Shown here piece by piece: positions 25,092 through 50,421 of a stretch of DNA of 64,000 bases (position 1 is its first letter; the number at the start of each line of letters is the position of its first letter). Below the pieces are notes generated by a model that ran no database searches, had not been told where the DNA came from, and saw only the letters and a list, made by a program, of their open reading frames with translations. The position numbers and the translations under genes are program-made. The DNA lies in the NCBI GenBank assembly GCA_024693135.1, contig JAILLN010000049.1, positions 1 to 64,000 on the forward strand. Direction: 5' to 3'. Source of the DNA: Lachnospiraceae bacterium (GTDB lineage: Bacteria; Bacillota; Clostridia; Lachnospirales; Lachnospiraceae).

Positions 25092-26021
25092 TCATCCCAC
25101 GATTCCATAATCCCGGATACTGTCCTCAAAACTCCTCTCCGGCTTCCATCCGGTATGCTCCCTGATCTTATGCACCGAAGGCTGGAGAGAAATGAACGGC
25201 TCCGGATCTTTCCCATAATGTATCACTCCCTTCGGCGCCACTATCTCCCTCAGCCGCTCTGTGTATTCTTTTAATGGTCTGTATTCCCCATGGGCAATAT
25301 TATAGATCTCTCCAGGTCGGCCTCTAAGGCTCAGGGCGATCAGCGCATCCGTCGCATCATACACATCCAGATAGTCCCAGTTCTGAGCACAGGAGGACAG
25401 GTTCATCTCCCTTCCTTCCCGGAGGGCATGGTAAAGATCCGGAAGCATCCGTCCCTCCGGCTCATACTTCCCGATAAGGGAAAAGATCCTCCCCCAGATC
25501 CATTCGATCCCGAGCTCCTCTGTACGCTTCCTTGTCCGCTCCATTGCCGTCAGCTTCGCTGTCCCATAGGCTGTGACCGGATCCGGGAGGAGACTCTCAT
25601 CTTCCTCCACATCAGGAGGCACCACACCGTACTCTGCCTGAGAGCCCGTCAATACGATCCGCTTCACACCAAGTACAGCTGACGCCTCGGTGACCGCTAC
25701 GGCATAGTCCACATTCTGCGCCTGTTCACCCATGATCCGGCCTCCGCCCCACATCAAGTGGAAGCAGACATCGATTCCCCGGTCTTCCTTCAACGAATCA
25801 TCTCCTCCATCGAGCCCCATTTGGATCACGTGATCCGGAAGTTCCCCATATCTTTCCGGCTCCAAGGGGATTACATGCAACCCCAAGTCGTCCGTTTTCA
25901 GCCTATTGTTATGGACTGAGCCCGGCCTTACTACAGCATAGACCTCATAGCCATTCTGCCTCAGCCTCTCCGTCAGTACTGCTCCGGTAAAGCCTGCCGC
26001 GCCCGTCACAATTGCCTTCAT
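25092..26021 (-). CDS. NAD(P)-dependent nucleotide-sugar epimerase/reductase (extended SDR)
   Basis: A 309-aa extended SDR. Nucleotide binding is TGAAGFTGAVL (7-17; the usual GxxGFIG with T for I). The catalytic pair is YGTAK after GSQAEYG, and WGRIFSLIGKYEPEGRMLPDLY covers the substrate side. RfbJ/RfbS-type enzymes of this fold finish CDP-3,6-dideoxyhexoses (abequose, paratose), and YerF finishes yersiniose. With RfbF/G/H in the same locus, a terminal 4-ketoreductase/epimerase for the CDP-sugar is the best reading. The ribosome site GGAGGAGGGAGG is unusually strong. A fragment of its 3' end is duplicated at 20.5 kb. Confidence 0.75.
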   Translation of the reverse strand: MKAIVTGAAGFTGAVLTERLRQNGYEVYAVVRPGSVHNNRLKTDDLGLHVIPLEPERYGELPDHVIQMGLDGGDDSLKEDRGIDVCFHLMWGGGRIMGEQAQNVDYAVAVTEASAVLGVKRIVLTGSQAEYGVVPPDVEEDESLLPDPVTAYGTAKLTAMERTRKRTEELGIEWIWGRIFSLIGKYEPEGRMLPDLYHALREGREMNLSSCAQNWDYLDVYDATDALIALSLRGRPGEIYNIAHGEYRPLKEYTERLREIVAPKGVIHYGKDPEPFISLQPSVHKIREHTGWKPERSFEDSIRDYGIVG

Positions 26022-26066
26022 CCTCCCTCCTCCATTCTGTTTTTCAACACAGAAATACGCCTAAGC

Positions 26067-26094
26067 CCTGTGAGATCACTATGTCCGAAAAAAC
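26067..26094. repeat. dispersed repeat R3
   Basis: CCTGTGAGATCACTATGTCC and the next bases (GAAAAAAC) match the right half of R2 at 24979-25006. It lies just upstream of the epimerase start. Confidence 0.45.
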
Positions 26095-26168
26095 AGGATC
26101 TTTCCTAGCCATCTTACCATTATCCCCAATTTCCAAAAAGGGATTACAACTCTGATTCAGGCATCCTT

Positions 26169-27338
26169 TTAGATGATCATAAGGGAATTGTTTCCCATCC
26201 CGTCAATTTGTTTCTTTATCTCCTCTCGGTAAAGCATCACAGTGATAACCACTTTCCCGGAAAACTCTCGTAAAAAATCTGGAGACTCTACAGAATATCC
26301 ATATAATGTTTTCCCCTGCTTCAATCTGTTGTTGTCAACAAAGCACCTGATATCACATTTAGAAAGATCTGATACCGCCATAAGATGCATCATATACGAA
26401 CCGGTTCCCCAAACAACCACAGGTTCAGCATCATGGGCCAGTCTTTCGATGATGCAGATTAATTCCTCCTCCTCTTTTTCCCCCCTCACTACATACTCCC
26501 GGATAGACTTTTCCGTTATCTCATCTTTTTCTATTAAATCTGTTTTCGAATCCATTCTGCGATATAGCACGACATTTGATAATGTCGTCAGCATATTTCT
26601 CTGAAAGCCAATGGATGTATGGGCACATACTCTCTCGAAACCGCACCGGCCAAGCAATATATCTGCTGTCTTTACCGAAAAGTAGTTTATATGCTCATGA
26701 TTAAAGTTATTGACAATCGGTGTCTGGTCTATCATCAAATCTTCAAATCTAGGCCAGGTAAGAAGCAGGTATCCATCTTTTTTCAAGTAGTTTTTCCGAA
26801 TATTGTCTATTGCTTCTTCGGGGCATAATAAATGCTCAAACACCATTGTCATGATAACAAAATCCACCTTAATGTCACTTAAAGGCGGTTGATAAACCGA
26901 TCCAATGATGCCTTGAAATCCATATTGTACGATACTGTCTATCGAGGCTTCAGATGGATCGATTCCAACTAAATTATGATACCCCTCCTGCCGAAGATAG
27001 TTCAGGAGATTTCCATTGCCACACCCCATATCCAAAATCATGGAATCCTCAGATAAATAAGCAGCCAATATCCTTGATATCACTGCATAATCGTAATCTG
27101 TACTAGCATTGAACTTCCAGCCACCCCCATAATAATTGTTATGATTATAATAGTCATCATAATCCTCTTTTGAGGACGCTGTATCCGCATAGCAATTCCC
27201 ACAATTATCACAGCAGACAATATCATAACCATTACCCAGATGAATATCATCCGGCAACTTATAATCAATCCGATATAATTGTCTCCCAATTTGATTCCCG
27301 CATGCAGGACATGACCTATGCAATATGATATTCTTCAT
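26169..27338 (-). CDS. sugar C-methyltransferase (TylCIII/NovU/EvaC-type)
   Basis: A 389-aa protein in three parts. The N-terminal zinc-ribbon-like segment is CPACG (C10, C13) and CCDNCGNC (C43, C46), as in Methyltransf_13 proteins. A SAM-binding domain follows, with ILDMGCGNGNLL (101-112), VGIDPSEASI and VFEHLLCPEEAI. The C-terminal Rossmann-like part contains VVWGTGSYMMHLM and FVDNNRLKQGKTLYGY (Methyltransf_14-like). Members methylate the carbon next to the keto group of NDP-4-keto sugars. Here the likely substrate is the CDP-4-keto-dideoxy sugar from the adjacent RfbF/G/H enzymes, giving a C-methyl branch. ATG 27338 follows AGAAGG. Confidence 0.8.
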   Translation of the reverse strand: MKNIILHRSCPACGNQIGRQLYRIDYKLPDDIHLGNGYDIVCCDNCGNCYADTASSKEDYDDYYNHNNYYGGGWKFNASTDYDYAVISRILAAYLSEDSMILDMGCGNGNLLNYLRQEGYHNLVGIDPSEASIDSIVQYGFQGIIGSVYQPPLSDIKVDFVIMTMVFEHLLCPEEAIDNIRKNYLKKDGYLLLTWPRFEDLMIDQTPIVNNFNHEHINYFSVKTADILLGRCGFERVCAHTSIGFQRNMLTTLSNVVLYRRMDSKTDLIEKDEITEKSIREYVVRGEKEEEELICIIERLAHDAEPVVVWGTGSYMMHLMAVSDLSKCDIRCFVDNNRLKQGKTLYGYSVESPDFLREFSGKVVITVMLYREEIKKQIDGMGNNSLMII

Positions 27339-27386
27339 CCTAACCACCCTTCTGCAATAATACCTCTGTAATCGCAGCTCAACGGC

Positions 27387-28166
27387 TTAAGCTTTCCATC
27401 TGACCCATGGTGCTCTCCCTTGTACCAGCATCCGATCCAGCATCTGCTTCTCGTAGAGGGTATCCATGCACTGCCAGAAGCCATGATGGGAGTAGGACAT
27501 CAGCTCCCCCTCTGATGCCAGTCTGGACAAAACCTGCGTCTCTAGTATAGTCTCATCACCCTCTATATACTCAAACACAGCCGGTTCCAGTACCATGTAA
27601 CCGGCATTGATCATCAGATCGTCCTGCCTCTTTTTTTCCCGGAATGAGCGCACTGTATTATCATCCCAGATATCCAGCGTCCCCTTTGTTTCCTTCTGGA
27701 CTACTGCCGTCAGAGTGGCCAGCTTTCCCTGCTCCTTGTGAAACTTGACCAGTTCTCCTATATCTACATCACAGACCCCGTCACCATAAGTCAGCATGAA
27801 AGTCTCATTCCCAATATACTTCTGCACCCTTTTCACACGTCCGCCAGTCATGGTGTCCAGTCCGGTGTTCACGATTGTGACCACCCAGGGCTCCGTGCTC
27901 CGGTCATGGATCGTAACCTCATTATTATGGTTGAAATCGATCGTAATATCTGAAGTATAGAGAAAATAATCCGCAAACCATTTCTTGATCATCTCCTGCT
28001 TGTATCCTGCGCAGATAACAAACTCGTGGTACCCGAAGAATGAATACTCCTTCATGATATGCCACAGGATTGGCATCCCGCCAATCTCTATCATAGGTTT
28101 CGGCCTGTATTCACTTTCCTCCATGATCCTCGTGCCTGCACCGCCTGCTAATAATACTACCTTCAT
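27387..28166 (-). CDS. rfbF: glucose-1-phosphate cytidylyltransferase
   Basis: A 259-aa nucleotidyltransferase starting MKVVLLAGGAGTRIMEESEYRPKPMIEIGG, the RfbF/DdhA signature (G-G-x-G-T-R and the KPM lysine). WHIMKEYSFFGYHEFVICAGYKQEMIKKWF is near-diagnostic for CTP-using RfbF as opposed to dTTP-using RmlA, and FMLTYGDGVCDVDI supplies the metal aspartate. It makes CDP-glucose from CTP and Glc-1-P, the first step of all CDP-3,6-dideoxyhexoses. ATG 28166 is preceded by AGGAAAGGG; the frame stays open upstream without a site. RfbG and RfbH lie 4 kb upstream in the same orientation. Confidence 0.95.
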   Translation of the reverse strand: MKVVLLAGGAGTRIMEESEYRPKPMIEIGGMPILWHIMKEYSFFGYHEFVICAGYKQEMIKKWFADYFLYTSDITIDFNHNNEVTIHDRSTEPWVVTIVNTGLDTMTGGRVKRVQKYIGNETFMLTYGDGVCDVDIGELVKFHKEQGKLATLTAVVQKETKGTLDIWDDNTVRSFREKKRQDDLMINAGYMVLEPAVFEYIEGDETILETQVLSRLASEGELMSYSHHGFWQCMDTLYEKQMLDRMLVQGRAPWVRWKA

Positions 28167-28215
28167 TTCCCTTTCCTTTCTGATCGTAAAGCCATCTATT
28201 AAATGATTAACAAAC

Positions 28216-29970
28216 CTATCCCAGCACGTCTTCCTTTTTCCGGAGGGCAGCTTTCCCATCCCGTATCTCATAGATCAGATCGCAGTTTCGGATGGTGGTC
28301 AGGCGGTGTGCGATGATGATCATTGTCTTGGTACCTGCCAGGCTGTCGATAGCCTCCATCACGGCAGTCTCCGTCTCCGTATCAAGCGCCGCCGTCGCTT
28401 CATCCAGCACAAGTACCTTCGGATTGCGGTATAGCGCCCTTGCGATGCCTATCCTCTGCCTCTGCCCGCCGGAGAGCTTCACTCCCCGGTCGCCGATATT
28501 CGTATCCAAGCCCTTCGGCTGCTCCCGGATGAATTCGTCCAGCTGAGCCTCCTTCAGTGCCAGCCATACTCTCTCATCATCGATCTCTTCCGGTTCTATG
28601 CCGAAGGCCACGTTAGACCGCACGGTCTCATCCGTAAGATAGATCGCCTGGGGAATATATCCCACAATCTTATGCCAGGCATGCGGGTGCTTATACACAT
28701 CGGTCTCATCTGCCAGAATATGCCCCCCGTCCGGCTTGAGCACCCCAAGGATCACGTCTGCCAGCGTCGTCTTTCCCGCACCGGAGGGTCCGATGAAGGC
28801 GACAGATTTATTAGCCGGAATCGTTAGATCCACATGATCCAGGATGACCTTATCGGGGCGAGATGGATAAGCGAAGGTCACGTCAGACACCTTCAGTGCA
28901 TCCTTCACTTCAATTTTCGTATCATCTTTATCGTCCTCTTCAAATTTCTGCCTCAGACCCTCGATTCCCTTCAGATCATTATAGACCGCATCCACAGAAG
29001 GCATGCCGAACATAATATTTCCGATGTATCCGCTGATCCGATTGAAGGAAGGCAACATCCGAATAGCCGCTATGGCAAAAACCGACATCACCGGCACGAA
29101 GGATTTCATATCCTCTCCCATATAGATCCTTATGGACATGAAAAGCAAGAGACCGCAGATGCATACTGTCTCCATGATGGGACGGGGAACGATATTAAGC
29201 AGAAGCTGTCTTTGTTGGATCAGGGCAAACTTTTTATAGTTTTCATCGTACCGTCGAGTAAAATACTTCTCCGTATTAGCTACCTTAACCTCCTTGATGC
29301 CCCCGAATGCCTGTAGCATGGCTCGATTCATTTGGGCGCCAACCTCTCTGCTCTCCTGACCCATCTTCTTTAGCTTTTTCTTAAAGATTATCATGACCAC
29401 ATACAAAAAAACGGCAAGCAACGCAACCAGCATCAAAGTCGTTTTCGCATCCTTAATGAAAAGATATATCGAAAGCACAGCGCAGACCGAAGCCTCCGTA
29501 ATCATCTGCAGGAAAGCAAGCACAACTGTAAAGAAGCCATTGACATCCGAAGAAATATTCCTCATCAGTTCCGAGACATTATGGGATACATGAAAAAGAT
29601 AATCCTGGCTCAAATAACACTCCATCATCCGGTTAGATATCCTGCGCTGGTTGTTATAAGTGAAGCGATAGGTCACATCATACATACAGGTAATATAGAT
29701 ATTTTTGAAAATGTATATTACCACCAACAAAAGAGCCATATAAAGAATAGAAATCCGGATGTCTGTTATACCTAGGAAATCTGCTATCATGGAAAGCCTT
29801 GAGTTTGTATGGATGACTTCTGGATTCGTCACAGCAGATACCAAAGGCAGAACCGCAGAAACTCCCAGCAACTCCACAAAAGCCCCCACAAAGATCATAG
29901 CCATCAGAATCATAAGCCGGATCTTCTGGTGCCTGTTCAATATATACGATATCTTCCTTAAAATGTTCAT
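28216..29970 (-). CDS. ABC-type half-transporter, PglK-like flippase candidate
   Basis: The 584-aa product has a six-helix membrane domain (residues ~1-320) and an ATPase domain with Walker A GPSGAGKTT, Q-loop YIPQAIYLTDETVRSNV, signature LSGGQRQR, Walker B VLVLDEATAALD and switch HRLTTI. It is a homodimeric exporter of the MsbA/PglK class. In a glycan locus such a protein most likely flips a lipid-linked oligosaccharide; no Wzx-type flippase is seen in this window. ATG 29970 has GAGGAG about 11 bases upstream. All catalytic motifs are intact. Confidence 0.88.
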   Translation of the reverse strand: MNILRKISYILNRHQKIRLMILMAMIFVGAFVELLGVSAVLPLVSAVTNPEVIHTNSRLSMIADFLGITDIRISILYMALLLVVIYIFKNIYITCMYDVTYRFTYNNQRRISNRMMECYLSQDYLFHVSHNVSELMRNISSDVNGFFTVVLAFLQMITEASVCAVLSIYLFIKDAKTTLMLVALLAVFLYVVMIIFKKKLKKMGQESREVGAQMNRAMLQAFGGIKEVKVANTEKYFTRRYDENYKKFALIQQRQLLLNIVPRPIMETVCICGLLLFMSIRIYMGEDMKSFVPVMSVFAIAAIRMLPSFNRISGYIGNIMFGMPSVDAVYNDLKGIEGLRQKFEEDDKDDTKIEVKDALKVSDVTFAYPSRPDKVILDHVDLTIPANKSVAFIGPSGAGKTTLADVILGVLKPDGGHILADETDVYKHPHAWHKIVGYIPQAIYLTDETVRSNVAFGIEPEEIDDERVWLALKEAQLDEFIREQPKGLDTNIGDRGVKLSGGQRQRIGIARALYRNPKVLVLDEATAALDTETETAVMEAIDSLAGTKTMIIIAHRLTTIRNCDLIYEIRDGKAALRKKEDVLG

Positions 29971-32358: not shown

Positions 32359-33468
32359 TCAGTGTTCTTGCAATAATAAGTATTCCCTGATCTGCTCATC
32401 CATTACGGATCTGATGTCTTCCCCCGATAGATAAGCGGCATACCAGCGGGCAGTCCTTTTTACCGCCTCCTTTATATCCCAGACCGGCTGCCATCCAAAA
32501 GTCCTTTTCAACCTGCTGCAGTCAAGTTTCAAGAAGCCTGCTTCATGCGGACCGCCATCACTTCGGTCAATCCAGGATGCTCCATGCAGCCCCATTTCGG
32601 GCGCGATATCGTTCCAGACACCGCAAAAAAGCTGTACAAGATCCCCGGTAGTCACGCAGTCGCAATCATCCGGTCCCACATTATAGCATCCACTCTTCTC
32701 TCGATCCACCAGCTGGGCTTCTGCGACCATAAGATATGTCATGACCGGCTCCAGTACATGCTGATAAGGCCTGGTGGAGAGGGGGCTTCTCACCACGATC
32801 TTCTTCCCCTCTGATACAGCCCGCACACAGTCTGGAATGATCCGGTCGTGGGCAAAATCTCCCCCGCCGATCACATTTCCTGCCCGGCAGGTGCTCACTG
32901 CAGGGGCATCGATCCCATATCTTTTTTGATACTCCTCATCCGTGAAGAACGAATTCCGGTAGCAGGAGGTCACCAGCTCTGAGCAGGACTTGGAATTCGA
33001 ATAAGGATCAAAGCCATTCAGCTCTTCCTCCTCCCGGTAGCCCCATTCCCACTCTTTATTCCGATAAACCTTATCGGTAGTGACATTCACAAAGGAGCGA
33101 ACGGAAGGCGTACGCCGTACCGCTTCACATACATTCACCGTCCCCATCACATTGGTATCATAGGTTCCCACAGGATCCCGATATGAATCCCGCACGATGG
33201 GCTGTGCCGCCATATGGATCACAATCTCCGGCTCTGCCTCTTCAAACGCCTTCATCAAACGGGGCAGATCCCTTATGTCTCCCTCTAGAGAATGCATCCC
33301 CTCCCGGAGACGGCATAGCTCAAAAAGAGCCGGCTCCGTAGGGCTTTTCAGGGCATAGCCCCACACCTCCGCCCCGGCCAGGATCAGAGCCCTGCACATC
33401 CAGGAGCCCTTGAAGCCGGTATGCCCCGTGACCAATACCCTTTTCCCCTTATAAAAATCAAGACCCAC
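32359..33468 (-). CDS. rfbG: CDP-glucose 4,6-dehydratase
   Basis: The family start LDFYKGKRVLVTGHTGFKGSWMC is unmistakable (NAD-binding GHTGFKG). VIHMAAQPIVRDSYRDPVGTYDTNVMGT, VNVTTDKVYRN and the catalytic YSNSK match RfbG/DdhB. The enzyme converts CDP-glucose to CDP-4-keto-6-deoxyglucose. The most likely start is GTG 33468, one base after the stop of rfbH, because the protein then begins as its homologues do; an ATG at 33501 would add 11 residues and overlap rfbH. The product is 369 aa. Confidence 0.95.
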   Translation of the reverse strand: MGLDFYKGKRVLVTGHTGFKGSWMCRALILAGAEVWGYALKSPTEPALFELCRLREGMHSLEGDIRDLPRLMKAFEEAEPEIVIHMAAQPIVRDSYRDPVGTYDTNVMGTVNVCEAVRRTPSVRSFVNVTTDKVYRNKEWEWGYREEEELNGFDPYSNSKSCSELVTSCYRNSFFTDEEYQKRYGIDAPAVSTCRAGNVIGGGDFAHDRIIPDCVRAVSEGKKIVVRSPLSTRPYQHVLEPVMTYLMVAEAQLVDREKSGCYNVGPDDCDCVTTGDLVQLFCGVWNDIAPEMGLHGASWIDRSDGGPHEAGFLKLDCSRLKRTFGWQPVWDIKEAVKRTARWYAAYLSGEDIRSVMDEQIREYLLLQEH

Positions 33469-33469
33469 C

Positions 33470-34861
33470 TTAAAGACCGTCCTTCCCGCTATGTGCGTCA
33501 TTTTCCAAACTCACTGCTTCCCGGATCACCTGTGCCATGGTATCGATCATCCGATCTGTCATCCCCGGATATACTCCCACCCAGAAGGAATGGTTCATGA
33601 TATAATCCGTACAGCTCAGATCGCCAGAAACCCGGTAAGCATCCGTATCCCGGTATTCGTCAAATGCAGGATGCTTGATAAGATTACCGGAAAATAAAAG
33701 CCTGGTCTGGATATTGTGCTCTTCCAGATACCTGGTCACATGATTCCTGCTGATCCCGCTCTCCGCTTTCACAGAGATCAGAAATCCAAACCAGGAAGGA
33801 TCGCTCGAAGGCGCCGGCTCCGGCAAGATGATCTGTTCAGCTGCATCAGATCCTGCCAATGCGTCATACAGTCTCTGCCAATTGTGCTTCCTCCGCTCGA
33901 TAAAGGACGGGAACTTCTGGAGCTGCTCCACCCCCACGGCCGCCTGCATGTCCGTCACCTTGAGGTTATATCCGAAGTGGCTGTACACATACTTATGGTC
34001 ATAGCCGGCAGGAAGCTGTCCATACTGTCCGTCATAACGGTGACCGCAGAAATTATCGTGCCCGGAGGGACAGATGCAGTCCCGTCCCCAGTCCCGGTAG
34101 GATAGGATCAGACGATGCAGCAGGGGATCATCCGTATAGACACAGCCTCCCTCTCCCATGGTCATATGATGGGGCGGATAAAAGGAAGACGTACCGATAT
34201 CACCCCAGGTACCGGTATACTTCGTCTTTCCGTTGATCGTATATTTTGATCCCAGGGCATCGCAGTTATCCTCCACCAGCCATAGGTTATGCTTCCGGCA
34301 GAACTCAAGTACAGCCTTCAGGTCAAAGGGATTCCCCAGGGTATGGGCAATCATGACGGCCTTTGTTTTTTTGCTCAAAGCTTCCTCCAGCTTTAATACA
34401 TCGATATTGTACTGGGGTACCGCCACATCCACGAAAACCGGAACAGCCCCATACTGCAGGATCGGTGCCACTGTGGTGGGAAATCCCGCAGCTACCGTGA
34501 TCACCTCATCCCCACGGCCGATCCTTCTCTCCTTCAGCTCCGGCGCTGTAAGCACCATAAAGGCCAGAAGATTAGCCGAGGAGCCGGAATTTACCAAATG
34601 GGCGAAGCGCACTCCGATCCATTCTGCAAACTCTTTCTCAAACCTCTCCGCAAATCTGCCCGTGGTCAGCCAGAAATCCAGCGCCGCATCCACCAGGGAC
34701 TGTATCTCCTTTTCATCATAAACCCGGGAAGCATAGCTGATCCGGTCTCCCGCCCGGAAACCTTCCTTTGATTCCCTCGGCTCCAGAAATCCGTGATAGT
34801 AATCCGCCACCAGCTCCCGGATCTCTTTCCGTGCTTCTTCCTCATTTTCCCACTGCTTCAT
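33470..34861 (-). CDS. rfbH: CDP-4-keto-6-deoxyglucose 3-dehydrase (PMP/[2Fe-2S])
   Basis: The 463-aa product has the E1/ColD hallmark FYPPHHMTMGEGG, in which His replaces the Schiff-base Lys of DegT aminotransferases, so PMP stays non-covalent. Four Cys match the [2Fe-2S] ligands of E1: C200 in VEDNCDALG, C262/C264 in GRDCICP and C272 in NFCGH. It removes the 3-OH to give the 3,6-dideoxy-4-keto sugar and needs an NADH-dependent iron-sulphur reductase (RfbI/DdhD), which is not encoded in this window. ATG 34861 follows GAAAGGA. It is the upstream partner of rfbG. Confidence 0.95.
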   Translation of the reverse strand: MKQWENEEEARKEIRELVADYYHGFLEPRESKEGFRAGDRISYASRVYDEKEIQSLVDAALDFWLTTGRFAERFEKEFAEWIGVRFAHLVNSGSSANLLAFMVLTAPELKERRIGRGDEVITVAAGFPTTVAPILQYGAVPVFVDVAVPQYNIDVLKLEEALSKKTKAVMIAHTLGNPFDLKAVLEFCRKHNLWLVEDNCDALGSKYTINGKTKYTGTWGDIGTSSFYPPHHMTMGEGGCVYTDDPLLHRLILSYRDWGRDCICPSGHDNFCGHRYDGQYGQLPAGYDHKYVYSHFGYNLKVTDMQAAVGVEQLQKFPSFIERRKHNWQRLYDALAGSDAAEQIILPEPAPSSDPSWFGFLISVKAESGISRNHVTRYLEEHNIQTRLLFSGNLIKHPAFDEYRDTDAYRVSGDLSCTDYIMNHSFWVGVYPGMTDRMIDTMAQVIREAVSLENDAHSGKDGL

Positions 34862-34919
34862 TTTCAATCCTTTCTTCCATAAACTCCGGCATATTCAGCT
34901 TCTCTGAGCTGCTGTGATC

Positions 34920-39402: not shown

Positions 39403-41019
39403 TTATTTCCGTTCCCTAATTTCAAATATACTTTCTGTCAAAAAAGCAATCCGCATATGATCTGCAACTGACCAATACAAATCCTCATAAATTTCCTTTA
39501 TCTCATCGTTAAGCTCATCCCATTTATTGTCGGGATTAAGTGTCGGGAGCGAGCTATCCGCATAACTTTCATTATACTTTGTTTTGAATCCGTCAAATCC
39601 TGCAATAATCACATCAGACACATTCAACTTATACATCAATCTAAGACACAGTATTACCGCATTGTCAAAGTGTCTCCATCCTCTTTTAACAACATAATTA
39701 TAATTTAGGATTATTTCTTTTTCGTTCCCCTCCGTTCGGATATTGGATAATAAGATCTTATTTGCATTAGTAAATATGGTGGGATAGGCCTCTTTTGCAT
39801 AATCATATCTAGCCCTATTAGTAAAGAAAACATAGTCAAACTCATGGTCTCTATTAATTGCATTTACCGCTATAACAACAGGTTTATTCTTTTTTATATA
39901 CTTTTCAATCTTTTCTTTATGGATAACAATGGATTTGCCCGGTGCAAGAAGAAGGACTGTCCTATTCTTAAACTCATTTGTCAATTTCTCGATATCTTCT
40001 TCATCATCAACATGCCGGCCCTGGTTTTCAAGGTACTTCTCTTCCAGCAGATCGTAATCGTACTTCCTTCTTTCCTCCACAGAAAGCGCCGCTATGATTG
40101 TCCTCATATCCTTAGCACTAGTTCTGTGATTTGTCAGTAAATATGCTATATTATTCACATGACATTGATACATTCCGGCAATAAAGTAGGGTGTTGAATA
40201 ACCCCAGGTATATTGTTCTTTATATTTTTGCATATAGATATCGATTGCATCCATTATGGCATTCATATCATAATTGCCATGCTGGAAGCGGTTCAAATAG
40301 TTTGCAACAAGCTCCGTTGTGGCGTTGCCTGCACCTCTTCCCATTCCGCTTAATGTAGCATCCACAATAATATTGCGCTTGTCTTTCATCCCCTTAATAA
40401 AATCTATGCACAAAGCAAATGCAAGCTGTTGGTTATTGTGAGCGTGAAAACCAAGGTTTATTTTCTTGTCAAGATATTTATCCAACACCGTGGCAATCCT
40501 GTCCAGATCTTCAAAATACATTGCACCAAAAGTATCGACTATAGAAACCGATACCGGCATAAATTTATTCATATCCTCCGCGAGATCTCTTAAATCATCA
40601 TCGGAATAGGAAAGGGTATTCGCCGCCTGAAAAAGAACCTTATACCCTCTTTCTCTGATTTTTTCACCGACAGAGATGCCTTCCCTGTGCCTGCCATGTG
40701 GAAAAACAACCCGTATTGCATCTATGCTTTTTCCGTCATATGGGGGAAGGCTCTCTACCTTATACCTGTCCCAGTCTATCATGGCACAATACAGGATATC
40801 CTTCGACTTTTCCTGTATATAACCTTCCACATCTGATGGTATGTGAAAAAAAGTAGATCCCGTTTCATATGGACTATCCTTTAGCCACCCACATTCGATC
40901 ACTTCGGCATGTGCTTTCTGCATCTGGGATATAATACCACGGATTGAAGCCTCTCCGAACTTGGCATTTGTGATATACGCACCATCCCGTAACGTACAGT
41001 CTAGTATCTTAATGTTCAT
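39403..41019 (-). CDS. HMGL-type aldolase fused to a DUF115-like domain
   Basis: A 538-aa two-domain protein. Residues ~1-300 are a DRE-TIM barrel of the HMG-CoA lyase/4-hydroxy-2-oxovalerate aldolase type: KILDCTLRDGAY (4-15), VIECGW, SIVDTFGAMYFEDL, the metal-binding GFHAHNNQQLA, and VDATLSGMGRGAGNATTELV. Residues ~350-538 form a second domain (NRTVLLLAPGKSIVIHKEKI, KPVVIAVNAINRDHEFDYVFFTNRARY, ILCLRLMYKLNVSDVIIAGFDGF) resembling the DUF115/MptE-like fold found in Maf-type sugar transferases. The combination is unusual. It may make or split a keto acid for the ThDP enzyme encoded next. Confidence 0.72.
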   Translation of the reverse strand: MNIKILDCTLRDGAYITNAKFGEASIRGIISQMQKAHAEVIECGWLKDSPYETGSTFFHIPSDVEGYIQEKSKDILYCAMIDWDRYKVESLPPYDGKSIDAIRVVFPHGRHREGISVGEKIRERGYKVLFQAANTLSYSDDDLRDLAEDMNKFMPVSVSIVDTFGAMYFEDLDRIATVLDKYLDKKINLGFHAHNNQQLAFALCIDFIKGMKDKRNIIVDATLSGMGRGAGNATTELVANYLNRFQHGNYDMNAIMDAIDIYMQKYKEQYTWGYSTPYFIAGMYQCHVNNIAYLLTNHRTSAKDMRTIIAALSVEERRKYDYDLLEEKYLENQGRHVDDEEDIEKLTNEFKNRTVLLLAPGKSIVIHKEKIEKYIKKNKPVVIAVNAINRDHEFDYVFFTNRARYDYAKEAYPTIFTNANKILLSNIRTEGNEKEIILNYNYVVKRGWRHFDNAVILCLRLMYKLNVSDVIIAGFDGFKTKYNESYADSSLPTLNPDNKWDELNDEIKEIYEDLYWSVADHMRIAFLTESIFEIRERK

Positions 41020-43197: not shown

Positions 43198-44238
43198 TTA
43201 TTTGCTTCCAGTTTCTTTCTTATCTATCCCCTCACCAAATCTATACGCTTTCTTCGACTTTTTTCCTATAATTTCATCATAATACTTCGGCTTGATCCCC
43301 ACGGCCGGACGTATACTCCGTACATTGTCTTTGGTAAAAACCTCTCCTTCGGCTATATCCTGCACAGCAACCAAGGATCGTCTAAATTTCAGGCCGCTCT
43401 TCTCATGGACTGTTAAATCGTATGTAGCTTTTCCCAATACTGTTTCCGTATCTCTGACATCCTGTACCATCTGTGCAAACTCATCCATCGTCATAGAGAA
43501 GCCAGAATCCGGAGTCTCTATCTCATGCCCCAGGCATACATGTTTCTCAATCACGACCGCTCCCAAAGCTGTCGCGATTACCGGCCCCAATGATCCCGGA
43601 GAATGATCTGAAAGACCCACATTCACTCCAAACCTTCTCCTCATATCCGGAATGGTTGCCAAGTTCATATCCTCAAACTGTGCAGGATACTGACTGCAGC
43701 ATTTAAGCAGAGTCACATCATGGTTATCATGCCTGTAGCATGCTTCAAGAGCATCTTGGATTTCTTCAAGGCTCCCCATCCCCACGGACATGATGATCGG
43801 CTTATGCTTTGAAGCCACATACTCGATCAGCGGAATATCCACAAGCTCAAAAGAAGCGATCTTGTAAAACTCGATTCCTATTTCTTCGAGGAAATCAACC
43901 GCCGTGTTGTCAAATGGAGTAGACAGGAAATCTACTCCGCATCTCTCGCACTTTTTTTTGAGATCTGCCTGCCACTCCCAGGGCGTCATCGCCTCCTGAT
44001 AAAGCTTATAATAATTATATCCGTCCCAAAGGCCGCCATGAATCCGGTAAGGCTCAGCATCGCAGTCAATGGTCAGCGTATCCGCTGTATATGTCTGGAT
44101 CTTCACACAGTCTGCTCCGGCCTCTGCGGCCTTTTCTATGATTTCATAGGCCAGGTCTTTCTTTCCTGCATGATTGGCCGACATTTCTGCTATAATGTAA
44201 ACTTTTCCATTTTCTATCATATCCTTGTACTTTATCAT
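43198..44238 (-). CDS. pseI: pseudaminic acid synthase (NeuB family)
   Basis: A 346-aa NeuB-type enzyme that condenses PEP with a 6-deoxy-diaminohexose. Motifs: YIIAEMSANHAGKKDLAYEII, DCVKIQTYTADTLT, then WDGYNYYKLYQEAMTPWEWQADL, a pattern typical of PseI rather than sialic or legionaminic synthases, VDFLSTPFD, FYKIASFELVDIPLI, LLKCCSQYPA, VGLSDHSPG and VIEKHV. The C-terminal antifreeze-like SAF domain (RRSLVAVQDIAEGEVFTKDNVRSIRPAVGI) is complete. The start overlaps the PseG gene by 4 bp. Confidence 0.88.
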   Translation of the reverse strand: MIKYKDMIENGKVYIIAEMSANHAGKKDLAYEIIEKAAEAGADCVKIQTYTADTLTIDCDAEPYRIHGGLWDGYNYYKLYQEAMTPWEWQADLKKKCERCGVDFLSTPFDNTAVDFLEEIGIEFYKIASFELVDIPLIEYVASKHKPIIMSVGMGSLEEIQDALEACYRHDNHDVTLLKCCSQYPAQFEDMNLATIPDMRRRFGVNVGLSDHSPGSLGPVIATALGAVVIEKHVCLGHEIETPDSGFSMTMDEFAQMVQDVRDTETVLGKATYDLTVHEKSGLKFRRSLVAVQDIAEGEVFTKDNVRSIRPAVGIKPKYYDEIIGKKSKKAYRFGEGIDKKETGSK

Positions 44239-45254
44239 TTCAGCAGTTCCCTCGCTATCCTTACTGCACCCATGCCGTCTATGGTCTTTTGCAGCAGCTT
44301 AGATTCTCTGACCCTTCTTTCTTTGTCCCTGCATAATATGATCAGTTCATCGATCAATCTGCTATAACTAAAGTCCTCATTTCTTACGTCTCCGATGTAT
44401 CTCATCAGTCCTCTTTTATCCAGGCTTTTTACACCCTCCATCTGATTATCCGCTATAGAAAAAGTAATCGTTGGTGTTCCGCAAGCAGCTAGCTCCTTTG
44501 TGGTAGTGCCCCCAGCAGAAATACAAGCATCCGCCCTTTTCATAAATAGATCAATATCATCTATGCTTCTGAATATTTTCAAAGATTGGTATTGCCCAGC
44601 TAATCCAGCAATCCTTCCATAATCCTCATTATATCGTCCGCACACAACATTCACAACACAGTCATTAAATTCGTCTATTTTAGAGATGAACATCTCACAT
44701 ATGTTAAACACAACATGAAAATGATCCGAACCGCCGGTTAAAATTAAAATCTCTGATGCTTTATCCCGGATGTCCTTATCCTTTTGGTTTCTAAACTGTT
44801 TTCTTAATGGCGTATATTCACCGCCCAACAAAAACCGTATGTCATCACTATAATCGCTATATAAGTCTCTCCCCGCATCAAGATCATAATTCACTATTAT
44901 GTCGCATGGCAGATACTTCCCTGTAGCATCATCGATATATGCTGTCTTTGCAATATTCCTTATGCTTGCAAGATAATTCTCTGTCACAAAATAAGAGTCT
45001 ACCAATACCACTTCGGTTTTATCTGGTTCCAAAACAGATTTTAAGACATCCAGTTCTTCTTCCATTTCCTTGAAATCACTGTTTAAAACCAAACAGGGGA
45101 AGCCAAGCTTTTTTACAAGCTCTTCCCCGTATTGATCCGCCACAATAAAACAAACATCTTTATCTTCCTCGATAAAAGCCTCCGCTATGGCCAAGCATCT
45201 CATAATATGTCCCGTGGCTATTTCTTTATTTGCATCTGCACGAATATAAATCAT
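44235..45254 (-). CDS. pseG: PseG-type UDP-sugar hydrolase of pseudaminic acid synthesis
   Basis: A 339-aa GT-B-like hydrolase: MIYIRADANKEIATGHIMRCLAIAEAF (PseG has the same RxDxxxxxGxGHxxRC layout), VLVDSYFVTENYL, AYIDDATGKYLPCDIIVNYD, ILILTGGSDHFHV and the late CISAGGTTTKELAACGTPTITFSIADNQ. It releases UDP from the UDP-diacetamido-6-deoxy sugar before condensation by PseI. ATG 45254 follows GGAAGGAACC; the frame stays open upstream to 45287. Confidence 0.87.
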   Translation of the reverse strand: MIYIRADANKEIATGHIMRCLAIAEAFIEEDKDVCFIVADQYGEELVKKLGFPCLVLNSDFKEMEEELDVLKSVLEPDKTEVVLVDSYFVTENYLASIRNIAKTAYIDDATGKYLPCDIIVNYDLDAGRDLYSDYSDDIRFLLGGEYTPLRKQFRNQKDKDIRDKASEILILTGGSDHFHVVFNICEMFISKIDEFNDCVVNVVCGRYNEDYGRIAGLAGQYQSLKIFRSIDDIDLFMKRADACISAGGTTTKELAACGTPTITFSIADNQMEGVKSLDKRGLMRYIGDVRNEDFSYSRLIDELIILCRDKERRVRESKLLQKTIDGMGAVRIARELLK

Positions 45255-45385
45255 TCCGATACCGGTTCCTTCCGGATTACACACCATTCAAATGATTTGT
45301 TGTCCCCTTGTTAGTAATCAAAACATCATATACTGGTTATTGACAAACAAACAGAAACTGCATAAACGTAGTCGAGGTTAACATC

Positions 45386-45844
45386 TCAAGGGCATTTTTT
45401 TGCATACACTATTTTTCTTTCATCTCTTTCTTTTTCAATGTATCCATTATTTACAAAACAGCATATGCTCGCAATATTATCTGGTTTTACTTTCCCAATT
45501 AATTCATCAATATCCAGCTCCGGATCAATTATATTATCAATTTCAGCCAGCATTGCCTCTCCAAAACCTTGATGGCGTCTATCCGGAGCCACACAAAACG
45601 ATATCACCCCTTTCCCCTCCTCTTTATCTATTCTAATTGATCCAATAGGGTTTCCACCTTCATCTATTCCTATGAAGAACAGGCAATTCGAATCAACTAG
45701 TTTTTTTTTCATCCATTCCAAATGTTCATCCCATGGTATCGGTTTCATTGAAAACGAATTCTTTCGTGTAGTAGGATCATTGGACCACTCGTACATTATT
45801 CTGACATCTTTATGCTCTGCTTTAACAAGTTTAATCTTCTTCAT
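45386..45844 (-). CDS. pseH: PseH-like GNAT N-acetyltransferase
   Basis: A 152-aa GNAT protein: MYEWSNDPTTRKNSFSMKPIPWDEHLEWM is the usual start of PseH/FlmH-like enzymes, and the CoA-binding turn is FCVAPDRRHQGFGEAML, followed by CCFVNNGYIEKERDERKIVYAK. It would acetylate the 4-amino group introduced by PseC. It lies between PseG and remnants of a formyltransferase, on the same strand. Confidence 0.8.
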   Translation of the reverse strand: MKKIKLVKAEHKDVRIMYEWSNDPTTRKNSFSMKPIPWDEHLEWMKKKLVDSNCLFFIGIDEGGNPIGSIRIDKEEGKGVISFCVAPDRRHQGFGEAMLAEIDNIIDPELDIDELIGKVKPDNIASICCFVNNGYIEKERDERKIVYAKKCP

Positions 45845-46147: not shown

Positions 46148-47337
46148 TTATGGTCTAAAATTATATTTATCCGGATTAGATCTCCTAAATCCATTTTTGA
46201 TAATCTTTAACAGACCACTCGCATATGCACATATCGGCATTTTTATATTATATTTTTTCATCATATTTAGCGTAGAATTAGTGTATTCATCTTTTTTCCC
46301 TTTATAAATCAAATATCCCCAATAGTAATTCTTTTCTTTCCTATAACGATCAATATCAAAAACATCTCTAAAGTTATCGAGTTTTCCTATTATATCCAAA
46401 TCTATCATCGTTCTTGTGCATTTTGAACATCTTGAATCATTACAAATCTTCCCATTTACACTATTAACATATCTACATACAAACAATTCTTTTTGTGCAA
46501 TTCTATTGTCAGATATATATATCGTTTTTTCACTACGGGTCAATTCTGCACCGATCACATAAAAATTTGTGTTTTCCGTGGCAAGACAATGAACTAACAA
46601 TGGATCTGCTTTCTCACTTGAATGACCTACTAATTCGAACTCATCATACGTATAACCTGATGATATGTAGTAATTACTCACCATCTTTTGTAACGATAAC
46701 GCTACAGCCGCATTAACATAACTAACAACCGCATCATGTGCAGATGAATAAAACCCATCAATAATATTAGTTTTAATCCAGACAGGTTCAATGCAATATT
46801 CACTACATATCCTTCGACATTTTTCAGATAGGCTTTTCCAATCAGCATTCCCGTTTTCCATTATCAATTCCCAAAAAAACCATACCTTACTTTATATTCT
46901 TTGTCATATTCTTTTCTGCTCTTTTCTAATGTATAAAATGAATCTACCCCACCCGAAACTCCAGTTGCAGCGCCTTTTTTAAATCTTTCATAAATTGAAT
47001 TCTCTAATTCACTCTCAATTTCTATATTATGAAAATAATCTATACTGTGAGATAAAGCAGGAAACAATAGCTGAGTTACTTGATAAAACAGTTTTTGGGA
47101 CAAAGGAGCTTCGCAACAAACCAATAGTTTTTCTTGTTCTTCTGATCTATAAAGCAAATATGGAATAAGTGCAACAAAAAAAGCATCTATTCTTTCCTTG
47201 CATAGGAGCAACTCATATTTTTCTTCTACTTCAAAATACAAGTCCTTGTTGACAAAATCACCAGATATATGACTTATCAGTTTGACCATTTCATTTTCTT
47301 TTTGTATCTCAGGTTTTCCAATAACAATGCGTTTCAT
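46148..47337 (-). pseudogene. PP-loop (SGGxDS) protein split by a frameshift at a T7 tract
   Basis: One gene is read in two frames. The N-terminal part (47337-46864) ends after ATGVSGGVDSFYTL, the ATP-pyrophosphatase P-loop, and VRYGFFGN-stop. The C-terminal part (46867-46148) continues with NGNADWKSLSEKCRRICSEY, a cysteine group (CNDSRCSKC) and ends YNFRP. The break is at seven T residues (46873-46879, plus-strand A7): one extra T joins the frames with no other lesion. The protein belongs to PP-loop proteins seen in polysaccharide loci, function unknown. It may be a true pseudogene, a phase-variable gene or a sequencing slip. Confidence 0.75.
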
Positions 47338-47347
47338 ATGTAATCCT

Positions 47348-48610
47348 CTAATCTTTCTTTTTGTATTCGACTCCCAACGGCTTCAAATAAACGACCCTGC
47401 TGTCATCACGATTCAACTGATCAAATAACTTCTTCGCAGGAATAGTAGCATTCATCGTTGTAACAAAAATATACTCTGTTCCCTTTAGCAATTGTATATT
47501 ATCTGGTTTCTTTGATTCTATTCCCTTAAATGAAACCTTTCTATATGAGTCATATATTGCTATAAGCTTTGCCTTGGGGAACCGTTCCATTACAAAATTA
47601 TGAATCCACTCGCTTATTTGTGTCATTCCCCAAAAAGCATATTCATATTCTGCGTCTAAATCAACCCAGTTTTTTTCTATAAATTCCCTTGCATAATCCA
47701 CCGCGTCGTTAACATAACACGATTTCATCCTGTTCTCATAAAACCAGCTGATATTCAAATATTTTGAATAATAATCATATGATTGTCTCAACATCATCTC
47801 AGCTGTACTATAAACTCTGAATTTATGTTTCTCAATATCTAGCGGTTTTGGATTCCAATCTATCAGATCAATTTTATCTTTTGTATAAATCGGCAACAAC
47901 TTCTCAACCCATCCAAATCTATAACTAATCGAATTAACTAAAAGAACCACCGGTATCCCCATTGCTGTACAAGGTATTGCACAATGCAACAAAGAGGTAA
48001 TTACTAGTTTTGAGTTACGCTTATAGTCATCAAGGAGGTATCTTGCAGCTTCTTTTGCTGGAAGTCCCGTTTCATTCAAAAGATGCGATCTATAGACTGC
48101 ATTTTGTCTTATAAATTCAGGAATGAACTCCGTCATTTCAGACACAACATCAACTATATATATTTTCTCAGGATCGATATCTGTTTCATTACATATTCTT
48201 TTGGAAAATGTGATTGTTGTGCATCCAAAAAGAAAACTCTTTATTCCATACTTTCTACAAGTAACTAAAGCATACTCATCCCTGCAGCCTATAGGTTCAA
48301 ATTCCCTTAAATAATTCACTTCTTCTTTGGACAAGAAATCTTTAACCATCGTAAGTCCAAGAAAAACAGGAATAATATGATCTGAAAACCGGTTGCAAAT
48401 CCCTCCCTCAACATAATTAACCAATGGAAGTGTAACCGGCAGAATAACATATTCCCCATTATAAGATCCCAATTCTCCAATAGGAATATATACTACTTCA
48501 TCCAGAGAAATCCCCATCTTCTTATACAGTTCATCTATTGCTATTATCTGAATATAATCCCCTATATATTGTGCTCCATATTCGTCTAATTGATAGTTAG
48601 CATATCTCAT
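47348..48610 (-). CDS. polysaccharide pyruvyltransferase family protein
   Basis: A 420-aa protein with the CsaB/WcaK fold: NYQLDEYGAQYIGDYIQIIA at the start, VYIPIGEL, a middle REFEPIGCRDEYALVTCRKYGIKSFLFGCTTITF, typical of PS_pyruv_trans, and later YKRNSKLVITSLLHCAIPCTAMGIPVVLL, the donor-side motif. The C-terminal ~90 residues (EYAFWGMTQISEWIHNFV...IFVTTMNATIPAKKLF) form an extra Rossmann-like domain. It may add pyruvate ketal or act as a glycosyltransferase-like enzyme. RBS AGAGGA lies seven bases before ATG 48610. Confidence 0.75.
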   Translation of the reverse strand: MRYANYQLDEYGAQYIGDYIQIIAIDELYKKMGISLDEVVYIPIGELGSYNGEYVILPVTLPLVNYVEGGICNRFSDHIIPVFLGLTMVKDFLSKEEVNYLREFEPIGCRDEYALVTCRKYGIKSFLFGCTTITFSKRICNETDIDPEKIYIVDVVSEMTEFIPEFIRQNAVYRSHLLNETGLPAKEAARYLLDDYKRNSKLVITSLLHCAIPCTAMGIPVVLLVNSISYRFGWVEKLLPIYTKDKIDLIDWNPKPLDIEKHKFRVYSTAEMMLRQSYDYYSKYLNISWFYENRMKSCYVNDAVDYAREFIEKNWVDLDAEYEYAFWGMTQISEWIHNFVMERFPKAKLIAIYDSYRKVSFKGIESKKPDNIQLLKGTEYIFVTTMNATIPAKKLFDQLNRDDSRVVYLKPLGVEYKKKD

Positions 48611-48672
48611 TTATCAATCCTCTGCCCCCACCCATTGTCTTATGGATAGTCCACTTCATTATAACCCTCTAA

Positions 48673-50421
48673 TCAACAAAGCTCCGGATACATATTAGTT
48701 AATACAGGCGTAATATAGTTTCCATTTTCACCAATCTTTGAAACAAGTCGAGGAATAACTGGATCATTAACCCTCTGATTAATCTCCATCATAATACTGC
48801 CTTCAAAAGCAAGTAACTCATCTATGATATTGTTCAATTCCGATGTCCTTGTACAATGAAGATAAGCCAATCCAAACGCACCAGCCACCTTATTAAATAC
48901 AGGCATTCCTATACCGCTCTCCTCATCACACCCCATATACCTTCCGCCAAAGAAGTTTTTACAGGTTTGTCTGATGGCTCCATAGCCATCATTTGAAAAT
49001 ACCACAATTTTAATCGGTATCTTATTAAAAACTATTGTTTCCATCTCCTGTAGATTCATCATTAATGACCCGTCACCCGTGACGCAATATACCTCCCGCC
49101 CGGATGCTATTGCTGCTCCAATTGCCGCAGGTAAATCATACCCCATCGAACCATCATTGTAATTGGTTAAAACCCTTTGTTGCATACTGGTTTTACCAAG
49201 CTGCAAAATCCCAACTATGCTAGAGCTGTTGCCAAGGACAATAATGGCATCCTCCGGAATCTTTTTTCTGAATTCGTTCCAGAAAAGCTTTGCAGGAATC
49301 CTGTCATCATCTCCTGCCTCAGGGATGTCGCATCCAATGTACTTGTCATAAATATTTTGACAGTAACCGACCCACTCTTTATCAGCATTTAAGGCCTGTC
49401 CATCCAAAAGTTCAAGGCACCTATCAAAAAAAATCCTCAGATCACACCAAATACCATACTTGATGCGGAGATCCGGCTTCTTAAGTTCATCCTTCTCGGC
49501 GTCAACCATTATGATTTCCGCATCAGGCGCAAACCCCTTCACATTAAAGCCCGTCTGTTTGGTCGGCATGCTATTCCCGAGAACGAGAATCAAGTCGCTT
49601 TTTTGGAGGATAAAATTTCCAGCCCTAGGACCGACACTTCCCGACCCACCAAAATACAAATCATATCCTTCCGGCAAAATGTCAGCCTGTAAAGCCCCCC
49701 CTACTATTGGAAGTTTTACTGTTCTTAAAAAATCCAGGAACCTGTCGGTAGCATCTGAAGAATATATTCCTGATCCGGTCAGAATGCACGGTCTTTCTGC
49801 CTTTTTTAATGCGGATAACACTTTCTGAATAGTTATGTCCTCAAGTTTATAATCGGTATGATAAGGGACATGATTGATATTCCGGTCTTCTATCTCTGCC
49901 ATCTGAACATCCAACGGAATACTAAGCCATACCGGCCCCCTTCTTCCGTCCATTGCAATATCATATGCCTTAAATATTTCTTCTTTCACTTCTTCCGGAT
50001 CTATTACCAATTGGGAATACTTTGTCATAGTCTTTACCGTCGTGACTATGTCAAATTCCTGTACTCCACGGCACCTCAGATTCAGCCCAGTGGAAATAGC
50101 AGATGTCTCATATCTCGGAAACCCTGCTATGATGATCATCGGTATACTATCTACCCAAGCACCATAAACTCCGTTAAGCGCATTGACTCCCCCGGGTCCG
50201 CTTGTGACCAAAACCACTGCGGGAGTTCCCTTGTAACGGGCATAACATTCAGCTGCCATCGCACAGGCCTGTTCATGATGGCAATACAGCACATTCATTT
50301 TTTCGCTTATGTCAAAGGCATTATTCAGATGCATGGAGCCTCCGCCGACCACACAAAAAGTGTCACTGACGCCCAGCTCCAGCAATGTATCTACCACAAT
50401 ATCTGCAACACGTTTTTTCAT
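48673..50421 (-). CDS. thiamine-diphosphate enzyme, acetolactate-synthase-like (copy 2)
   Basis: A 582-aa paralogue of the enzyme at 37.6 kb: FCVVGGGSMHLNNAFD, YCHHEQACAMAAECYARYKG (catalytic Glu in HEQ), VTSGPGGVNALNGVYGAWVDSIPMIII, and the ThDP/Mg motif GDGSLMMNLQEMETIVFNKIPIKIVVFSNDGYGA. All motifs are intact. Two such enzymes in one glycan locus suggest two different carboligation or decarboxylation steps on keto sugars or side-chain precursors. It lies 21 bp after PseC. RBS AAGGATC precedes ATG 50421. Confidence 0.8.
   Translation of the reverse strand: MKKRVADIVVDTLLELGVSDTFCVVGGGSMHLNNAFDISEKMNVLYCHHEQACAMAAECYARYKGTPAVVLVTSGPGGVNALNGVYGAWVDSIPMIIIAGFPRYETSAISTGLNLRCRGVQEFDIVTTVKTMTKYSQLVIDPEEVKEEIFKAYDIAMDGRRGPVWLSIPLDVQMAEIEDRNINHVPYHTDYKLEDITIQKVLSALKKAERPCILTGSGIYSSDATDRFLDFLRTVKLPIVGGALQADILPEGYDLYFGGSGSVGPRAGNFILQKSDLILVLGNSMPTKQTGFNVKGFAPDAEIIMVDAEKDELKKPDLRIKYGIWCDLRIFFDRCLELLDGQALNADKEWVGYCQNIYDKYIGCDIPEAGDDDRIPAKLFWNEFRKKIPEDAIIVLGNSSSIVGILQLGKTSMQQRVLTNYNDGSMGYDLPAAIGAAIASGREVYCVTGDGSLMMNLQEMETIVFNKIPIKIVVFSNDGYGAIRQTCKNFFGGRYMGCDEESGIGMPVFNKVAGAFGLAYLHCTRTSELNNIIDELLAFEGSIMMEINQRVNDPVIPRLVSKIGENGNYITPVLTNMYPELC

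Follow-up and report, generated by a model that had tools for sequence, protein, structure and literature searches.

Two YerE-like carboligases and their probable keto-acid donor modules in a Lachnospiraceae glycan locus

The stretch of 64,000 nucleotides analysed here (the window; contig JAILLN010000049.1 of assembly GCA_024693135.1, from a Lachnospiraceae bacterium) carries the genes RfbF, RfbG and RfbH for a cytidine diphosphate (CDP)-activated 3,6-dideoxyhexose, together with genes for two thiamine diphosphate (ThDP)-dependent proteins, ThDP-A and ThDP-B. Judged by sequence, both proteins belong to the YerE-like carboligases, with carboligation itself a prediction. Each of the two genes lies beside or among genes for the synthesis of a 2-keto acid, and the explanation that we consider the best overall, and probable, is that these neighbours are modules supplying the keto-acid donors of both carboligases. 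The initial annotation of the window had proposed a yersiniose-like branched CDP-deoxysugar; this was right in kind, though pyruvate is probably not the donor. What is new in the present account is the proposed general rule on donor modules, together with a nonulosonate reading of ThDP-B.

Two YerE-like carboligases in a dideoxyhexose locus

Among solved structures, the second-best match of both proteins is 5ahk, which we take to be PpYerE (245 bits for ThDP-A and 225 bits for ThDP-B), and the best is 8rph (382 and 324 bits, respectively). The latter structure, named JanthE (PMC12188165), shares 36% identity with ThDP-A. In a quick tree of 119 rows, which has several long outgroup branches, leaves out sulfopyruvate decarboxylase and was deduplicated only for identical central stretches, ThDP-A and ThDP-B fall within a 110-row group containing JanthE (Shimodaira-Hasegawa-like approximate likelihood ratio test, SH-aLRT, 100). 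Escherichia coli IlvI, IlvB, Gcl, Oxc and PoxB and the genome's own IlvB-like protein lie outside this group, as does 5ahk, which is paired with one archaeal row. The assignment of both proteins as YerE-like in the initial annotation is borne out by this grouping, and the clustering with other ThDP enzymes that it had named as the adverse outcome does not occur among the enzymes included in the tree. Both proteins carry the TGDG motif and the catalytic glutamate (E51 in ThDP-A numbering), the latter present in all rows of the tree groups listed. A residue comparison with JanthE shows its pocket positions Y297 and K567 retained in both proteins, as Y and K in ThDP-A and as F and R in ThDP-B (a gap and M in three acetolactate synthase rows), but Y268 and P293, which stabilise flavin adenine dinucleotide, are not kept, being V and L in ThDP-A and V and K in ThDP-B and varied in most relatives as well. 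The nearest named relative of ThDP-A is from a rumen Lachnospiraceae bacterium (80% identity), and a tblastn search of plasmids with ThDP-A returned only acetolactate synthase-type proteins among the matches listed.

It is extremely improbable that ThDP-A and ThDP-B are acetolactate synthases or makers of free keto acids. Their top NCBIfam matches do carry the acetolactate synthase name, but the ThDP-A scores fall below the cut-offs (330 against 738 bits and 323 against 538 bits), and the tree, in which both proteins group with JanthE and not with IlvI, IlvB or the IlvB-like protein of the same genome, contradicts that identity and disfavours the side-chain keto acids that the initial annotation had entertained as an alternative. 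Since family models label such enzymes acetolactate synthase, a pathway of this kind is easily overlooked.

The reaction of YerE-like enzymes starts with the decarboxylation of a 2-keto acid, whose acyl group is then transferred to a ketone; in YerE this is the C4 ketone of a CDP-sugar (PMC12247030). YerE favours pyruvate; ErwE is reported to couple a hydroxylated 2-keto acid with CDP-4-keto-3,6-dideoxyglucose, as demonstrated in vitro with an analogue of the sugar, prefers 4-hydroxy-2-oxo acids and does not use pyruvate (PMC12247030). Caryophyllose is a 3,6-dideoxy-4-C-(1,3,4,5-tetrahydroxyhexyl)-hexose (PMC5706390), and its 2'-methylene and 3'-hydroxyl groups fit the aldol product of pyruvate or phosphoenolpyruvate after loss of carbon dioxide. 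A gene list of the caryophyllose locus was not found in the passages of PMC13354803, and nothing useful on aurantose and higher-carbon sugars turned up in the covered parts of the open-access literature.

The acceptor genes were correctly identified in the initial annotation, RfbF, RfbG and RfbH all scoring above curated cut-offs (Table 1). By its sequence, RfbH is a true 3-dehydratase type, because histidine (His233) replaces the lysine that binds pyridoxal phosphate (PLP) and four cysteines (C202, C264, C266 and C274) are invariant; the histidine is found in 68 of 68 aligned RfbH rows, duplicates kept, against lysine in PseC, and the cysteines were established in the alignment with the same 68 rows. 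An iron-sulfur motif with a fixed 57-residue spacing was discarded, as it fits just 18 of the 68 rows and the four conserved cysteines emerged from aligned columns instead. An RfbF/RfbG/RfbH set makes CDP-4-keto-3,6-dideoxyglucose, and this is most likely the acceptor of the ThDP enzymes. Elsewhere in the window, positions 16332-17102 encode a flavin reductase whose C-terminal domain is rubredoxin-like; by its location only, it might conceivably pass electrons to RfbH.

The aldolase gene, which the initial annotation did not mention, precedes ThDP-A by 17 bp. In sequence, the N-terminal half of its product resembles 4-hydroxy-2-oxovalerate aldolases (DmpG, 1nvm) and the putative aldolase 3dxi, and the predicted fold (model pLDDT, the predicted local distance difference test, 87.5) retrieves the same two structures (3dxi, E 3e-18; DmpG 1nvm, E 4e-15). 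All 15 sequences compared share R11, D12, H192 and H194, and we take the Arg-Asp pair and the His-x-His motif to form the metal and pyruvate site. The C-terminal alpha/beta domain (39406-40122) found nothing at E<=0.001 in a fold search of the PDB; a weak Pfam match to lyxose isomerase is unsupported, the model being alpha/beta without a PDB match at that threshold. A weak resemblance of this domain to SteA was noted among the top matches.

With an aldolase beside ThDP-A, a 4-hydroxy-2-oxo acid is the expected donor and the branch would be long rather than two-carbon; that ThDP-A adds a branch of the erwiniose or caryophyllose type we regard as likely, with good confidence. In the scheme proposed here, RfbF, RfbG and RfbH would make the acceptor CDP-4-keto-3,6-dideoxyglucose, the aldolase would join pyruvate to an aldehyde to give a 4-hydroxy-2-oxo acid, and ThDP-A would remove carbon dioxide from this acid and attach the acyl group that remains at C4 of the acceptor. 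Reduction of the new ketone by a short-chain dehydrogenase/reductase (SDR) would then complete a CDP-3,6-dideoxyhexose whose long branch at C4 is of that kind. ThDP-B would act likewise, with the free nonulosonic acid from PseI as donor and its eight-carbon remainder joined to the same kind of acceptor. Pathways to such sugar acids would have two alternative ends, a cytidine monophosphate (CMP)-sugar synthetase or a YerE-like carboligase. Gene content, family membership and co-occurrence were computed, and from these we infer every substrate and product, including the ThDP-B acceptor and the role of the SDR.

Partner genes around the carboligases and their relatives

In a survey of 299 genomes of the family, 67 contain one or more genes for a ThDP protein similar to ThDP-A (E<=1e-85), 76 genes in total. 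Of these, 48 have RfbH at a distance of up to 20 kb; within 10 kb, an aldolase accompanies 33 (E<=1e-30 to that of the window, a threshold that misses most short aldolases) and NeuB, the family of PseI, accompanies 16, with both present at three genes, two of them the window's own, and neither at 30. As a control, 39 RfbH genes of ThDP-free genomes, covering 36 of the 39 such RfbH-positive genomes with three left out, had no NeuB and no aldolase (same threshold) within 10 kb.

The same pattern is seen in a set of 80 named loci that were selected solely by the similarity of their ThDP proteins. Within 3 kb of their 81 distinct ThDP genes there is a long aldolase at 14, a short aldolase, detected by profile search, at 10, and NeuB at 25, so that 49 have an aldolase or NeuB and 32 have neither; the partner lies directly upstream, within 500 bp, in 36 of 82 ThDP genes (before duplicate removal). 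The locus sets overlap in part, and duplicates were removed for these distinct-gene counts and for those of NeuA given below. Among 10 upstream proteins scanned from eight loci of the partnerless group, a third class of aldolase, HpcH/HpaI, precedes the ThDP gene in two (L031, 9157-9984; L062, 8540-9364), and the other six have HAD phosphatases, epimerase/dehydratase-type or short-chain dehydrogenases, or proteins of no family. All three partner families (HMGL-type, HpaI-type and NeuB-type) make 2-oxo acids of the fitting kind, and the simplest reading is therefore that the neighbour supplies the donor.

The class of donor follows the ThDP tree. Aldolase and NeuB labels (30 and 35 rows) require five changes on it, against a mean of 22 and a minimum of 15 in 200 shuffles. 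ThDP-A belongs to a 24-row group (SH-aLRT 98) in which all 23 other members have a long or short aldolase within 3 kb, and the six-row group of ThDP-B (SH-aLRT 100) is NeuB-linked throughout; the two-carbon, yersiniose-like branch of the initial annotation is on this account probably wrong. In a classical yersiniose pathway, both ThDP enzymes would use pyruvate, and the aldolase and pseudaminic acid genes would serve other sugars. Such a pathway shares the enzyme family and the RfbF/G/H set, JanthE does accept pyruvate (PMC12188165), and 32 of the 81 relatives lack a partner within 3 kb. It nevertheless appears very unlikely, given that a partner stands at 49 of the 81, tracks the ThDP tree and is found near none of the 39 control RfbH genes. 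All of these neighbour counts are to be read with the caveat that metagenome-assembled genomes are incomplete, that glycan loci swap genes and that association is not chemistry.

The absence of NeuA, the CMP-sugar synthetase, is a second line of evidence. NeuA is absent from all 35 distinct NeuB-ThDP loci, in the sense of absent from the stretches examined, and 15 of the 20 control NeuB loci have it (Fisher test, 1.3e-9); restricted to NeuB-ThDP loci with at least 3.3 kb on both sides, the comparison is 0 of 26 against 15 of 20 (Fisher test, 3e-8). Searching the NeuB-ThDP loci with a broader NeuA profile gave no score above 17.3 bits, and the pairwise NeuA matches of the fusion proteins in L005 and L204 fall on their HAD part. 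Control NeuB genes have no ThDP gene within 17 kb (that of genome G554 is 17.4 kb from one). The NeuB genes of G457, G246 and G628, which have a ThDP gene at a distance of 12-18 kb, do not count among the controls, and one of the control stretches measures only 4.6 kb. The control genes are mostly full-length and from the same bacterial family, those linked to ThDP being more varied in type and phylum, and NeuB subtype could account for part of the contrast.

Long aldolases show the same division: of 47 distinct genes, 26 have a ThDP gene nearby (on the same stretch or at most 10 kb away) and 21 have none, and NeuA lies within 500 bp of 1 of the former and 18 of the latter (Fisher test, 5e-9). 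The 18 ThDP-free aldolases beside a NeuA-like cytidylyltransferase, which are among L149-L161, L163-L165, L167 and L172, suggest an aldolase-based route to CMP-ulosonates. We propose that, where a neighbouring gene provides for a 2-keto-3-deoxy acid, the acid is consumed by the YerE-like carboligase instead of being activated with CMP.

Several of the NeuB partners or neighbours scanned are composite (NeuB-cupin, NeuB-SAF-xylose-isomerase-like, NeuB-HAD) or are accompanied by a separate HAD-SIS protein; examples of HAD-SIS, NeuB-HAD, NeuB-xylose-isomerase-like and NeuB-cupin fusions beside ThDP genes were noted at L028 8872-9969, L138 8238-9314, L024 218-1660, L022 6701-8806 and L037 8451-9977. 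NeuB with isomerase-like or phosphatase parts resembles a 3-deoxy-D-manno-oct-2-ulosonic acid (Kdo)-type pathway minus the CMP-synthetase.

ThDP-B among the pseudaminic acid genes

ThDP-B lies within a run of genes transcribed in the order PseC, ThDP-B, a pyruvyl-transferase-family protein, two small open reading frames (ORFs), a PseH-like gene, PseG and PseI. PseC, PseG and PseI, which went unmentioned in the initial annotation, each score above cut-off, and no CMP-sugar synthetase was found in the window (best NeuA profile score 2.6 bits). Five orthologs of ThDP-B with 48-53% identity occur in four other genomes of the 299, with NeuB-family genes 849, 1079, 2154, 2634 and 7488 bp away. NeuA was not found in four of the five stretches (20 kb each). 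Three of these (L123, L125 and L126) have NeuC-type and LegC-type genes above cut-offs in every case, and the NeuB of L123 and L126, the two scanned, is also above cut-off.

A nonulosonate is a possible donor of ThDP-B, which would give an eight-carbon branch. We tentatively suggest that ThDP-B and its orthologs weld the eight carbons of a nonulosonic acid to C4 of a CDP-4-keto-deoxyhexose, to form a 14-carbon diamino branched sugar; the acid would be pseudaminic here and of the legionaminic type in L123, L125 and L126. Because PseB was not found and another CMP-sugar synthetase lies elsewhere in the genome, this step is put forward conditionally. In the covered parts of the open-access literature, no link between YerE-like enzymes and NeuB or nonulosonic acids turned up.

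This synthetase is the genome's one PseF-family match (E<=0.01), a fusion with a PseG-like domain, both parts below cut-off. Its gene is located on contig C14 next to a second NeuB gene, and the protein could operate in trans. It points to an alternative in which two sugars are made side by side: ThDP-A would build the long-branched dideoxyhexose, pseudaminic acid would be made separately and CMP-activated in trans, and ThDP-B would use a small donor. The ThDP-B ortholog of L124, which retains NeuA about 0.9 kb away, speaks for it as well. We judge this arrangement rather unlikely, as the C14 synthetase has a NeuB of its own, NeuA is missing from four of the five ortholog stretches even though NeuC and LegC are there in three, and it is missing from all 35 NeuB-ThDP loci. 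Contig C14 (L173) also carries FnlA-, WbcJ- and WecB-like genes of the L-FucNAc type alongside the fusion and the second NeuB, and a gene there that had been considered as PseB is FnlA-like instead.

The C14 fusion, the NeuA of L124 and the 32 partnerless relatives weigh against the donor-module explanation, as do several further observations. No match to PseB exceeded its cut-off in the 87.8%-complete assembly, the strongest being FnlA-like; the LegB-like protein of L126, with 133 bits, falls short of its cut-off of 475, and the L126 stretch lacks RfbH. NeuA is in the stretch of 5 of 134 distinct ThDP genes, namely that of L124 and those of L005, L010, L013 and L049, which are of the aldolase class, and the single long aldolase flanked by both NeuA and a ThDP gene is that of L162 (genome G676). 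In the window's aldolase, Tyr15 aligns at the DmpG histidine after the RDG motif, presumably the catalytic one, and is tyrosine in 15 of 15 sequences; the window proteins scanned include no RfbI-like reductase.

Gene layout and related systems

The source assembly comprises 3.19 Mb in 67 contigs, with an estimated completeness of 87.8%. The glycan genes at 32-52 kb of the window are all on the minus strand and overlap or are separated by gaps of at most about 310 bp (Table 1). G+C content is 32.5-50% across 26-58 kb and mostly 46-60% elsewhere (40.8% at 18-20 kb). The two ThDP proteins, SDR and methyltransferase that the initial annotation placed in one locus are all present.

Table 1. Features of the glycan locus, with coordinates in the window
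Feature	Coordinates	Strand	Evidence or remark
SDR, Epimerase family	25092..26021	-	PF01370 104.7 bits; candidate YerF-like reductase of new side-chain ketone
S-adenosylmethionine (SAM) methyltransferase, C-methyltransferase-like	26169..27347	-	Methyltransf_23 73.7 bits
RfbF, glucose-1-phosphate cytidylyltransferase	27387..28271	-	TIGR02623 350 bits, cut-off 300
RfbG, CDP-glucose 4,6-dehydratase	32359..33501	-	TIGR02622 428 bits, cut-off 278
RfbH, CDP-4-keto-6-deoxyglucose 3-dehydratase	33470..34867	-	NF011936 704 bits, cut-off 423
ThDP-A, YerE-like carboligase (carboligation predicted), 595 aa	37598..39385	-	JanthE 8rph best solved relative
HMGL/DmpG-type pyruvate aldolase, 538 aa	39403..41019	-	PF00682; N-terminal TIM barrel and C-terminal alpha/beta domain
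PseI, pseudaminic acid synthase (NeuB family)	43198..44238	-	TIGR03586 451 bits, cut-off 340
PseG, UDP-sugar hydrolase	44235..45287	-	TIGR03590 185 bits, cut-off 153.6
PseH-like N-acetyltransferase	45386..45844	-	TIGR03585 45 bits (below cut-off 93); GNAT domains
ORF of ThDP-B operon	46148..46867	-	Pfam: nothing at E<=0.01
ORF with GVSGGVDS motif near end	46864..47337	-	Translation; overlaps 46148..46867 by 4 bp
Polysaccharide pyruvyl transferase family protein	47348..48610	-	PF04230 35.8 bits
ThDP-B, YerE-like carboligase (carboligation predicted), 582 aa, NeuB-associated group	48673..50421	-	JanthE 324 bits
PseC, aminotransferase	50443..51636	-	TIGR03588 456 bits, cut-off 423.5

The SDR and methyltransferase could also belong to a separate C-methylated sugar, RfbF, RfbG and these two enzymes giving a CDP-3-C-methyl-6-deoxyhexose, which we take to be of the vinelose type, beside the branched one. 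The two genes are adjacent to each other and next to RfbF, and the window SDR lies 11.6 kb from ThDP-A. We nonetheless hold this to be quite unlikely, since 22 of 31 aldolase-class loci have an SDR of this type no more than 3 kb from ThDP (as do 2 of 36 NeuB-class loci, duplicates kept), and the match of the methyltransferase to the C-methyltransferase C-terminal domain (Methyltransf_14) is weak, at 19.2 bits below a cut-off of 23.5. Relatives of the methyltransferase above 100 bits occur in five ThDP loci (L024, L026, L032, L035 and L046).

In the ThDP-B operon, the two small ORFs at 46148-47337 look, by their sequence, like a single PP-loop gene with a product of about 395 aa that a frameshift has split, GVSGGVDS being presumably a PP-loop-like motif. 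The pyruvyl-transferase-family protein has relatives of 35-37% identity in loci L028, L123, L126 and L128. Outside the glycan genes, an AAA_15/OLD-like ATPase adjoins a DUF3226 protein at 18204-20194, which recalls two-gene defence modules, and positions 61606-63984 encode a 792-aa protein with a fucose pyrophosphorylase domain and a GHMP kinase domain, of the L-fucose salvage type.

If the donor-module explanation is true, it would account for the source of the long donors of erwiniose- and caryophyllose-type sugars, and the kind of branch would become predictable from the neighbour of the carboligase, be it an HMGL-type aldolase, an HpaI-type aldolase or a NeuB-type synthase. It would also imply that sialic-acid-like acids are assembled into a class of very large C-branched sugars, and that nonulosonic acids have a further fate besides CMP activation and catabolism. 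More broadly, it would point to a wider and little-explored bacterial way to large branched sugars; the bacterium studied here belongs to a family often found in animal guts.

Compared with known systems, the locus shares with the YerE/YerF yersiniose pathway of Yersinia the RfbF/G/H acceptor, a YerE-like ThDP enzyme and an SDR, and differs from it in that each ThDP gene lies beside or among keto-acid synthase genes, the aldolase in one case and PseI in the other. A YerE-like enzyme with a long hydroxylated donor is likewise known from ErwE, for erwiniose in Pectobacterium atrosepticum, which acts on the same CDP-keto sugar, and from MMAR_2332, for caryophyllose in Mycobacterium marinum (PMC12247030); unlike these, the present system is from the Lachnospiraceae and has a second enzyme within a nonulosonate operon. 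JanthE is the closest solved relative, its pocket tyrosine and lysine being retained as Y or F and K or R, unlike the two flavin-stabilising residues. As in the pseudaminic and legionaminic acid pathways, PseC, PseG and PseI are in the window and NeuC, LegC and the NeuB family beside the ThDP-B orthologs, whereas here a carboligase occupies the locus in which a CMP-sugar synthetase was not found.

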